A stretch of DNA of 64,000 nucleotides from an uncultured Bacteroidota bacterium (GTDB lineage: Bacteria > Bacteroidota > Bacteroidia > Bacteroidales > P3), in the NCBI GenBank assembly GCA_902788805.1, contig CADALO010000001.1:248001-312000 (forward strand), read 5' to 3'. The first letter of the stretch is position 1; each line of letters opens with the position of its first letter. The position numbers and the translations under genes were made by a program. The notes beneath the pieces were generated by a model. That model had not been told where the DNA came from. It saw nothing but the letters and a program-made list of their open reading frames with translations, and searched no databases. Below, piece by piece: positions 13,943 through 55,271 of the stretch.

Positions 13943-14046
13943 ACCAACACTGGTCGTTGTACAATATATGTACAATAGTTGTACAATATATGTACAATTG
14001 GTAAACGTACAAATATTGTACAAGTATTGTACATATATTGAGGTGG
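13943..14046. repeat. Long intergenic palindrome, sub-family A, copy 1
   Basis: Imperfect palindrome of about 104 bp between divergent genes. The left arm has four 11-bp units (core tgtacaat) starting with cgttgtacaat at 13955; the right arm has only three complementary units, the outermost having been lost. The loop is aattggtaaac. The left flank ccaacactggtcg matches the flank of the sub-family B copy at 54454; the right flank is degraded (gaggtggcg). It ends about 70 bp upstream of the -33 box of the phosphatase promoter. The rest of the 330-bp gap holds only that promoter. Confidence 0.9.
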
Positions 14047-30442: not shown

Positions 30443-30547
30443 TACCAACTCCGGTCGTTGTACAATATATGTACAATAGTTGTACAATACTTGTACAATT
30501 GTAAACGTACAAATATTGTACAAGTATTGTACATATCGGAGTTGGTA
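30443..30547. repeat. Long intergenic palindrome, sub-family A, copy 2
   Basis: A 105-bp palindrome with perfect 11-bp ends (taccaactccg ... cggagttggta). The left arm has four 11-bp units (cgttgtacaat, atatgtacaat, agttgtacaat, acttgtacaat); the right arm has three complementary units and lacks the outermost one together with two flanking bases. The loop is aattgtaaac. It lies in the 302-bp spacer upstream of the MORN-variant gene and downstream of the gene ending at 30630, both on the minus strand. I see nothing else in 30548-30629. Confidence 0.92.
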
Positions 30548-45958: not shown

Positions 45959-46081
45959 AGAAATGGTTTTTGTCGTGCCTCGGGTTATGTCCCGATGCAA
46001 ACGCAATAACTGCATTTCCGGTTTTTTATTGTACAGGCAGCGGACGAAAACCGTTAATAATCCGTTTTTTGCTGCCACCAG

Positions 46082-46194
46082 GTCCGTTCGTTGTCCAGTC
46101 GTTGTCCAGTTGTTGTCCAGTTGTTGTCCAGTCATTGACTGGACAACAACTGGACAACGAGCGGACAACGACTGGACAACGATCGGGAACGGAC
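46082..46194. repeat. Long intergenic palindrome, sub-family B, copy 1
   Basis: A 113-bp palindrome centred on cagtcattgactg. The left arm has four 11-bp units in perfect register (cgttgtccagt at 46089, 46100; tgttgtccagt at 46111, 46122). The right arm has four complementary units (actggacaac type), one of them changed to agcggacaacg. The outer ends gtccgtt/aacggac also pair. It lies between divergent Nif3 and DUF748 genes. It ends 72 bp before the -33 box of the plus-strand promoter. The remainder of the 364-bp gap is AT-rich leader sequence. Confidence 0.94.
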
Positions 46195-46266
46195 TTTTTT
46201 CGATGCGAGTGTGAAAGCGTTGCCAGTAGCTTAAAATTCAGTTTTTTTTCATTTGCATAACTTATT

Positions 46267-49490: not shown

Positions 49491-49550
49491 AAAACAGGGG
49501 GTTGAATAGGACAATAGAAAGACTTTTGTCCTATTCACCCCCCTGTTTTT
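49491..49550. terminator. Long terminator hairpin
   Basis: A 24-bp stem with one mismatch (aaaacagggggttgaatagg... with its complement ...ctattcacccccctgtttt) and an 11-base loop, with A and T runs outside. It separates convergent genes and is unusually long for a terminator. Confidence 0.85.
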
Positions 49551-53137: not shown

Positions 53138-53138
<1 letters not shown>

Positions 53139-54313
53139 TATAGTTTGTATTTTTTCTTGTCGGTAAAACGGTCCAGAAGCCTGACTTCAAGCGTCAGGAC
53201 AATCGGAATAACGGCGCTGTTGAAGCTCTGGGGCCACATACTGAAGCCCACGAGGAAGGCCAGCAGAACGCATCCGATGAGCAGCGTCATCACGCGGTTT
53301 TGGTGCCGCAGACGCACCAGCAGCCACATATACAGCGGGTTGGCCCACAGCAGGTTGAAGTTGGCCTTGGTGCACCAATGGTCGCTGAAGAAAGTCATAT
53401 AGATAAGCAGCAGCGACACGGCGCAAACGGCGGTGTATACAATGCCATCGAGCCAATAGAGCTTCCACTTGGCGCGGCGCGCCATCAAAGTTATAATCAG
53501 CACGATGGCAAACAATATCCAGAAGCACATCGTGGGCGACACGCTGCGGGGCAGGGACTGCCTCGTCTCGTCAAGCATCTGCGCCGACGGTTCTGCAAGA
53601 GCCTCTCCATCAGTGAGTAGCAATGTGTCAAGCTGCCACATCATCTCGGTTGGGATATAGGCATACTGCGACTTTGTCATTACGTGGTCGCAGTTGGCGC
53701 CAAGAAGCAGGTCGACGCCCAGCCGCCACCACAGCAGCGTGCTGTCGGTGTACTTGTAGACCAGGTCGCGGTAGGTCTGCTTCGTGTCGGGGTAGTCGTC
53801 GGGCGGCAGGCTGCGCCCCTTGAGGGCCGCCGCCACCATATCCCAAATGCGCGTGGCGCAGTTGTCGCGGAAGAAATCGTATTTATAGTATCTGTTCTCG
53901 GGTCGCAGGTTGATTACCAGCATCTTGAACAGCGTGTCCAGCTCGCTTTTGCTCAGCCTAAGGCGCTGCTCGTAAACCGAACGGCCGAAATAAGAATACT
54001 CCAACCAGAAGCCACCGAGCGACTCTGTGGTGACAAGATAATTGAGCCTGCCTCCGGCAAAACGCAAATAGAAATGCGGCTCGCTGAAGTCGAAAGTGCC
54101 GTAGTTGAACACCACGTCGAGGCCCTGCACGCTGTCGCATATCCTCAGCGCCGAATGGCCGAACGACTCATAGAACTCGTCGCCAGGACCGCAGGTCAGA
54201 ACGCTCGCAAAGGCCGAGTCGGACAACCTGCCAGGCATACGCTCCGCACTTTGCCCCTGCATCGAAAAACTGCACAACAGCAATAGAATCAGTAATATAA
54301 TGCTCCTTCGCAT
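53138..54313 (-). CDS. DUF4105 (Lnb N-terminal-like) membrane protein
   Basis: A 391-residue protein. A signal peptide (MRRSIILLILLLLCSFSMQG) is followed by a DUF4105 domain at about 20-235: VLTCGPGDEFYESFGHSALR, VFNYGTFDFSEPHFYLRFAG, and YYKYDFFRDNCATRIWD. The His in GHSALR and the Cys in RDNCATR are conserved family residues and could form a catalytic pair, as in NlpC-like folds; that is inference. The C-terminal 130 residues contain about five transmembrane helices. The ATG at 54313 is chosen over 54337 because it begins the signal sequence. First gene of a three-gene minus-strand operon with the two DUF3857 proteins. Confidence 0.88.
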
Positions 54314-54341: not shown

Positions 54342-54349
54342 CAAATATA
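54342..54349 (-). promoter_or_regulatory. -7 box of the DUF4105/DUF3857 operon
   Basis: The minus strand reads tatatttg (TAnnTTTG), 28 bp upstream of the start at 54313. A ttgg at about 54371-54374 on the same strand is at near-correct -33 spacing. Confidence 0.6.
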
Positions 54350-54453
54350 CGAACAAAAAATGGATTTTGACCAATACGGATTATTTTTTCCTTCGCAGTC
54401 GCCCGACGGACACCTCGTTGCAACGCAGTTTCAGCGCCGCTTTTGAGCCATAT

Positions 54454-54566
54454 CAACACTGCTCGTTGTCCAGTCGTTGTCCAGTTGTTGTCCAGTTGTT
54501 GTCCAGTCATTGACTGGACAACAACTGGACAACAACTGGACAACGACTGGACAACGGACGGTGTTG
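54454..54566. repeat. Long intergenic palindrome, sub-family B, copy 2 (complete type copy)
   Basis: A 113-bp palindrome with two 56-bp arms around a single central T (cagtcattgactg). Each arm has four 11-bp units of cgttgtccagt or tgttgtccagt. Apart from three mismatches in the outer flank the arms are perfectly complementary. The left flank caacactgctcg closely matches that of the sub-family A copy at 13943 (caacactggtcg). It lies between divergent DUF4105 and apt genes. Nothing else is seen in the 382-bp gap beyond the promoter boxes on both sides. Confidence 0.96.
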
Positions 54567-54642
54567 TCTCTGTAAAGTGTTGGTAATGAGATAGTGTTGA
54601 AACGGGCCGAAAATTCTTTTCTTTCGATTGCGAAAAGTTGTG

Positions 54643-54650
54643 TATCTTTG
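54643..54650 (+). promoter_or_regulatory. -7 box of the apt promoter
   Basis: tatctttg, perfect TAnnTTTG, 45 bp before the apt start codon. The -33 element is not clear. Confidence 0.6.
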
Positions 54651-54695: not shown

Positions 54696-55271
54696 ATGAA
54701 TTATAAAGACGTTATCAATCACTATCCCGATTTCCCGAAGCCCGGTATAAACTTTATCGACATTATCCCTTTTATGTCGAACAAGGAGGCTTACAATCAG
54801 CTTGTTGCCGATCTTGACGCCAATGTCCACAGCCCCAACGTCATTACCGTCGAGGCCCGCGGATTCCTATTTGCCGCTCCGCTGCTCACCCAGTCGAAAC
54901 TGGTGCAGAACATCGTGCCCATTCGCAAGAAGGGCAAGCTGCCTTTTGCCAAGGGCGATTTGCGCGATGTGCAGATAATGAAGGAATATGGCCCCGACCA
55001 CGTCTTCTACCGTCTGTCGGACATTGCGGCAGGCAAGCCTGAGGGCGACACGTTCTACCTGTCGTTCTTCGACGATATACTGGCTACGGGAGGCACCGCG
55101 GCAGGCATTGCCGAGTCGCTCAACCGCGAGCGTATTGTGCTCGACGGCAAGGAGTACAAGGTCAAGGTTCGTGAATTCATCTTCATCGTCGAGTTCCCTG
55201 ACCTCTACGACCACGCACGGCTGGAAGCCATAGCGCCAATCAAATCGTTTGTCAAGATAGAGGGCGACTGA
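54696..55271 (+). CDS. apt: Adenine phosphoribosyltransferase
   Basis: A 191-residue purine salvage enzyme forming AMP from adenine and PRPP. The PRPP-binding motif is FFDDILATGGTAAG. The N-terminal INHYPDFPKPGINFIDIIPF and the ARGFLFAAPLL segment that binds adenine are typical of Apt. The frame is open from 54594, but the ATG at 54696 gives the standard start and sits after the promoter. It is convergent with the RyR-domain gene, whose stop is 2 bp away. Confidence 0.95.
   Translation: MNYKDVINHYPDFPKPGINFIDIIPFMSNKEAYNQLVADLDANVHSPNVITVEARGFLFAAPLLTQSKLVQNIVPIRKKGKLPFAKGDLRDVQIMKEYGPDHVFYRLSDIAAGKPEGDTFYLSFFDDILATGGTAAGIAESLNRERIVLDGKEYKVKVREFIFIVEFPDLYDHARLEAIAPIKSFVKIEGD

Follow-up and report, generated by a model that had tools for sequence, protein, structure and literature searches.

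Inverted arrays of 11-bp units dispersed between the genes of a Bacteroidales genome: candidate protein-binding sites partly rewritten from one another

The window analyzed here is a 64,000-nt stretch (contig C1:248001-312000) of a 2.73-Mb Bacteroidales genome in 25 contigs, denoted G000, whose placement in this order follows from its promoter-like motifs and from relatives among rumen metagenome assemblies. At window positions 54451 to 54569, between two divergently oriented genes, lies a palindromic repeat composed of two inverted arrays of 11-bp units, and four further copies of this repeat occur in the same window. Genes were called with our own codon-usage script, not with a standard gene finder. 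The features are as follows (window coordinates):

54451-54464, plus strand: left outer end of an AGT-type copy
54465-54508, plus strand: left array, four 11-bp units GTTGTCCAGT(C/T)
54509-54511, no strand: palindrome centre ATT (CATTG with the flanking C and G)
54512-54555, minus strand: right array, four inverted 11-bp units
54556-54569, minus strand: right outer end of the AGT-type copy
54342-54349, minus strand: promoter-like motif TAnnTTTG facing the left gene (called at 53138-54226, minus strand), read from the sequence
54643-54650, plus strand: promoter-like motif TAnnTTTG facing the right gene (called at 54696-55271, plus strand), read from the sequence
46074-46196: second AGT-type copy, with one unmatched GCT unit in its right arm; G045 orthologue L326
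39654-39770: TGTACAAT-type copy with two complete arms; G045 orthologue L259
30444-30546: TGTACAAT-type copy, right end shortened in the present assembly
13943-14040: TGTACAAT-type copy, right end absent from the present assembly and present in orthologue L310

The inverted repeat 54454-54509/54511-54566 has arms of 56 nt that are 95% complementary, and the DNA of this copy folds with an energy of -65.7 kcal/mol (z -18.6); the inverted repeat 46084-46134/46136-46186 has arms of 51 nt that are 92% complementary. As noted in the preliminary description, the copies at 46082-46194 and 54454-54566 carry the unit GTTGTCCAGTY, and the other three carry TGTACAATAN. All 5 window copies have an orthologous copy in G045 (Reindeer_2_mag_28), a metagenome assembly of a sister species whose flanks are 89.3% identical to those of G000. 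Elsewhere in the window we observed degenerate 39-bp tandem repeats (1558-1922), which are probably coding, and a 27-nt inverted repeat between convergent genes (49491-49549), a likely bidirectional terminator.

Across G000, the family comprises at least 95 copies (92 + 2 + 1): the first pattern searches found 27 C-type and 57 A-type copies (84 in all), reading the whole of contig C1 added 2 GCT copies, and one further A-type copy, listed at C2:40696, is counted from its pattern match. From one side to the other, a copy has an outer inverted end, a set of 11-bp units (as a rule four), a short centre, the inverted set, again mostly of four units, and the mirrored end. The outer inverted end reads ACCAACWCYGKTCG and variants, and in many copies a conserved head sequence lies beyond one end. 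Type C is defined by the unit GTTGTCCAGTY and the centre CATTG or similar, and type A by the unit TGTACAATAN and the centre GTTTAC(C). The end pattern ACCAACWCYGKTCG gave 86 matches across G000 versus 0 for the reversed-pattern control, which bears out the earlier proposal that outer ends are common to the sub-families. Six of these matches fell outside known copies and all six sat on arrays, namely, two with GAT units (L311 and L313), one with GCT units (L315), two with A units (L312 and L316), and one chimera (L314) in which A and GCT units are combined in an order that is not mirrored. The family thus contains at least four unit types (A, AGT, GCT and GAT, plus mixed units), and the two sub-families originally recognized are too few. 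The preliminary description also suggested two cognate binding proteins for two unit types; a pairing of types with proteins may exist, but among at least four types. Unit types show no regional clustering in G000 (like neighbours, 34/63 versus 36.6 when shuffled). Beside the copies, we noted tandem repeats resembling CTTTCACTCCCC, with a period of roughly 11-12 bp, that abut the tail end of several A copies (at L062, L102, L106, and L108), as well as a second dispersed repeat, GGGGTGTGTCGCAC and variants, in the flanks of several copies (L041, L045, L050, and L053).

Long palindromes appear to have affected the assemblies. Four G000 contig ends lie inside or beside copies (the starts of C18 and C19, at L101 and L053, and the ends of C4 and C23, at L080 and L108), so this assembly breaks at the palindromes. 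In addition, damaged arms of A-type copies are found mostly on the contig-strand right side, with right versus left counts of 30 versus 5 in G000 and 24 versus 0 in G045; window examples are 13957-14040 and 30458-30546. Because the damage falls on the same contig-strand side in both assemblies, and does so with either polarity of the centre in G000, we rejected biological deletion of right arms and treat the damage as an error that short-read assembly makes systematically where palindromes are long.

All 84 first-studied copies lie outside called genes, and on contig C1 a single copy of 19 overlaps one. For the 72 of these 84 copies with a called neighbour on both sides (12 lacked one on one side), the neighbouring genes are divergent in 41 cases, tandem in 24, and convergent in 7, and a TAnnTTTG motif lies between the copy and the outward-starting gene in 77/116 gaps, compared with 19 for the antisense motif. 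On contig C1, counting gaps of at least 80 nt, a copy occupies 13/28 divergent gaps versus 5/99 others (Fisher P 8.7e-7). Compared with a class-matched null, the copies along C1 are over-dispersed (minimum distance 6.4 kb, P 0.005; CV 0.46 versus 0.83, P 0.002), and among pattern-found copies on six contigs a single gap is shorter than 7 kb, compared with 12.6 expected under uniform placement, a weaker null.

The preliminary description held that both unit bases that differ between the sub-families change in all four left-arm units and have complementary changes in the right arm. This does not hold for the window copy at 46082, in which the second right-arm unit from the outside is GCT and its left counterpart is AGT. 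More broadly, in the 25 full AGT copies, unit 2 was AGT/AGT (left/right) in 10, AGT/GCT in 8, GCT/AGT in 4, AGT/GAT in 2, GTT/AGT in 1, and GCT/GCT in 0, and unit 1 was GCT/GCT in two; the variants GCT, GTT, GAT, and AAT are unmatched between arms, and the sole clear arm-to-arm match in this set is the base after unit 3 (Fisher P 1e-4). Unit variants in one arm only are the very pattern that the preliminary description had named as refuting its claim. Pairing across copies was assessed on the 35 AGT copies of exact standard length (22 own, 13 from G045; others were dropped). In this set 92.6% of cells were paired versus 91.5 ± 0.3 upon shuffling, and 54 cells were changed on both sides versus 35, an excess that relatedness can inflate; the outer arm and the junction bases account for this signal. 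Similarly, outer 8-mers were identical between arms in 7/26 own copies (expected 2.3) and 13/47 G045 copies (expected 3.2). Arm-end coupling across copies is therefore modest and fits a start as a perfect palindrome followed by decay.

Compensation between orthologues was assessed at the ten innermost outer-end positions of the 22/27 C-C pairs with both ends intact (just 4/40 A-A pairs have both ends intact in both genomes). There, 111 cells were unchanged, 41 had changed on one side, 10 had changed on both sides and still paired, 2 were double changes that do not pair, and the other 56 were unpaired to begin with in our own copy, 28 of these cells being paired in G045. The 10 pairing double changes compare with 9.6 under random reassignment (P 0.5). 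Hence, the arms are coupled at copy formation and later changes go uncompensated between species, which leaves the proposed selection on the paired structure unsupported. Strict unit-level covariation is rejected on two grounds, the unmatched variants in the 25 AGT copies and the lack of compensation in the 22 pairs. Palindromic arrays can thus show apparent covariation even when pairing is not selected, which calls for caution when covariation tests are applied to repeats.

These data also weigh on the idea that the copies work at the RNA level, as terminators, mRNA stabilisers, or leader structures whose pairing is selected. We consider this highly improbable: the fold is indeed very stable and matched changes are slightly in excess across copies, but that excess disappears between orthologues, convergent placement is much rarer than divergent (7/72 versus 41/72), a promoter motif separates copy and gene in 77/116 gaps, and the sole Rfam match in the window, at gathering thresholds, is a tRNA.

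The comparison with G045 shows what is conserved. At least 73/92 own copies have a copy at the orthologous G045 place (A-A 40, C-C 27, A-C 6, the last class still including L065, at a displaced position, so that five A/AGT switches are counted); the G045 AGT-type copies came from the matches listed plus targeted probes, and 19/92 own copies had no partner found, with no clean empty site at three partnerless loci that we inspected closely. In C-type units (24 C-C pairs, 3/27 being set aside for other unit types), positions 1-7 and 10 (GTTGTCC..T.) changed in 3/1456 cases, and the free positions 8, 9, and 11 changed in 13.5, 14.1, and 21.2%, respectively, against 24.5% in flanking DNA. In A-type units (39 A-A pairs, 1/40 being set aside as a chimera), positions 2-10 (.TGTACAATA.) changed in 2/1753 cases, position 1 in 9.5%, and position 11 in 26.1%, against 29.9% in the flanks. 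Accordingly, 8/11 positions are frozen in C units and 9/11 in A units, in counts that are blind to units whose core changed in both genomes. The frozen/free profile was unchanged for arms found via the outer end alone, units not being required, in a search that also matched loose array-less end-like places (22 own, 40 in G045). This position-specific conservation shows that selection acts on the unit letters rather than on pairing. As selection on pairing would not pick positions and conversion alone would treat all positions equally, the pattern is most simply explained by a factor that reads the sequence. Conversion from a pool of copies whose variation is confined to the free positions could in part produce the same frozen pattern, chiefly in A copies.

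The two genomes further reveal partial rewriting of copies from each other. At shared loci, A copies have outer ends specific to their species, mostly GGTCG in G000 and mostly GTCCG in G045; over 33 arms, A-end identity was 0.739 between orthologues and 0.730 between random cross-species pairs, versus 0.879 and 0.835 within the genomes. C copies retain an orthologue signal, 14/49 ends being identical versus 3.6 expected. Unit type has switched in place between A and AGT (L060, L063, L085, L099, and L104), between GAT and AGT (L313, where one GCT unit is retained in both genomes), and between GCT and AGT (L315 and L318), and L314 is a chimera in one genome and A-type in the other; among these in-place differences, both flanks were aligned only for L063, L085, and L314. 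Some orthologues have inverted centres (e.g., L094/L277 and L103/L289), and in L109 and L151, from two other assemblies, the GCT unit of the near-identical L034 sits on the opposite arm. L109 is a single locus on contig C33 of G053, about 98% identical to our L034 in an assembly otherwise free of copies, and is probably a mis-binned contig or a recent transfer. The chimera, the in-place switches, the species-specific A ends, and the coupled 8-mers together uphold the alternative offered in the preliminary description, namely copying that keeps both units and arms uniform. A possible trigger is suggested by analogy with Escherichia coli, in which SbcCD cleaves the hairpins of an interrupted palindrome, the break then being repaired by recombination (PMC4245961). 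G000 encodes SbcD (111 bits), and SbcCD cleavage might likewise feed conversion between copies here.

In a screen of 120 genomes from the genus, 10 had the GTTGTCC pattern, its triplets differing by lineage (AGT; GCT/GGT; GAT), and 3 had the TGTACAAT pattern; amplification is lineage-specific (G000, G045, G097, and G049). Among the matches listed, most named relatives that share the array plan are assemblies of rumen Bacteroidales and Prevotellaceae, several relatives have, by eye, a degenerate second arm with the 11-bp phase seemingly kept, and tandem matches without the array plan come from a deltaproteobacterial assembly, a cyanobacterium, and Streptomyces. A pattern derived from the bacterial units also matched 20 viral contigs (L207-L226), and 14/20 of these matches lie, by eye, in replication-initiator-like genes encoding tandem TTGTCCGYTTG units. 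The phage units fall in the linker of the initiator-like protein, with a peptide like DNKRTTNGQQTD, and may be origin iterons within the initiator gene. Two such proteins were tested and gave PHROG matches to DnaD-like helicase loaders and replisome organisers; a Pfam comparison of two phage initiators gave no match. The bacterial units might then be iterons of a phage-type replication initiator, serving as decoys, relics of phage or satellite origins, or sites for a mobile-element initiator, and both the shared pattern and the PHROG matches favour this. We judge it improbable, as phage arrays have one orientation and few units and lie inside a gene, the host copies occupy fixed chromosomal places, the initiator family phrog_2514 had 0 matches in 5 host genomes, and the pattern search itself favours likeness.

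With respect to mobility, a REP-associated transposase had been suggested as a partner of the arrays. G000 has three Y1_Tnp (REP-type) transposase genes, and the 11-bp-array element is absent from the immediate flanks of all three; the nearest association is a GCT-type copy ~1.35 kb from one of them, with another gene between. Two of the three are flanked by their own GTAG-tagged short hairpins (GTAGCGTGT..ACACGC; at L120 and L121, just after the transposase genes), a separate REP/RAYT system. We therefore rejected RAYT mobilisation of the arrays, whose features also fail the REP stem test (stems of 5-13 bp tagged at one end by GTAG or CGTC), the arms being 51-56 bp with consensus ends ACCAAC...GTTGGT. 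Membership in REP/REPIN-RAYT is not supported.

MITE features are only partly present: the copies have terminal inverted repeats and are small, intergenic, and multicopy; target-site duplications were not seen by eye in the printed flanks, the three inspected loci gave no clean empty site, and a search for exact matches to the end pattern found no autonomous element with the same ends, the six extra outer ends all being on arrays. The copies may still descend from an old non-autonomous MITE- or REPIN-like repeat that spread before the species split and is now immobile, selfish or neutral, kept uniform by gene conversion and surviving in tolerant divergent spacers. Conserved outer inverted ends around a variable interior, the patchy distribution with its lineage-specific amplification, and the concerted A ends are in keeping with such an origin, and the bias toward divergent gaps could be obtained from old immobile repeats tolerated mainly between divergent promoters. 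We nonetheless think it the less probable course, given the lack of an autonomous partner, a lone end, or a visible target-site duplication, a position-specific freezing of units that is unexpected for neutral repeats, and the over-dispersed spacing.

The reading we prefer, in which we place about even confidence, is that the copies are fixed protein-binding arrays, homogenised by gene conversion. Each copy would mark a fixed place on the chromosome, where 11-bp units, one to a helical turn, stand in two inverted sets (mostly of four units each) bounded by an outer inverted end. A putative sequence-specific DNA-binding protein would read the units and assemble where the two sets converge, in most cases in the space separating divergent promoters, and could act on chromosome organisation or on neighbouring promoters. 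Selection would keep the unit letters; the near-perfect hairpin, arising as two inverted arrays are built from one unit, would be a by-product not selected itself. Recombination or template switching, possibly triggered when SbcCD cuts a hairpin that is then repaired from another copy, would partly rewrite copies from each other, and such rewriting would produce the in-place switches of unit type, the chimera, the inverted centres, and the species-specific ends. The patchy spread (10/120 and 3/120 genomes of the genus) would be unusual for a core chromosomal function.

Tentatively, and with appreciably less confidence than in protein binding as such, the copies can be pictured as a chromosome-wide, over-dispersed set of ~100 docking sites, in about half of divergent gaps (13/28 on contig C1), for a putative oligomerising reader acting as an insulator, supercoil-domain, or distributed-centromere protein, the unit alphabet being rewritten by lineage and copy via gene conversion as the sites stay fixed. 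Should proteins indeed bind the arrays, one shared element would occupy about half of the divergent promoter regions counted on a single contig of this rumen-type member of the Bacteroidales, and the two sister species would provide a natural experiment on the in-place rewriting of a site alphabet.

In the open-access PMC literature (subscription papers being mostly outside this scope), we found no description of this repeat family; several known systems resemble it in part. REPs and REPINs are likewise dispersed extragenic palindromes with several sub-families per genome and have stems of 5-13 bp, a GTAG end, and a place beside RAYT genes (PMC3733652, PMC3116915), whereas the present arms are ~56 bp, end in ACCAAC/GTTGGT, and have no adjacent RAYT. 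The BrickBuilt MITE of Porphyromonas gingivalis, also dispersed and intergenic in a member of the Bacteroidota, has short tandem direct repeats inside a conserved leader and tail; it comprises 19 elements of 84-991 nt with 23-nt repeats in one orientation (PMC4596501). The present arrays lack such 23-nt tandem repeats between leader and tail, consisting instead of inverted sets of 11-bp units in ~120-nt copies numbering at least 95. The phage-initiator iterons share the tandem 11-bp unit TTGTCCRNTNG with our family but are intragenic, single in orientation, and located on viral contigs, with an initiator family that had no match in 5 hosts. Plasmid parC sites have short direct repeats of similar size, 10-20 bp long (in plasmid R1, 11 bp), to which the oligomerising protein ParR binds, with families that differ in repeats and specificities (PMC9426499). 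By contrast, parC is a plasmid centromere found once per plasmid, and here there are ~100 chromosomal sites with inverted sets. We place the family among the dispersed intergenic palindromic repeats as a new form, being neither a REP nor a proven MITE.
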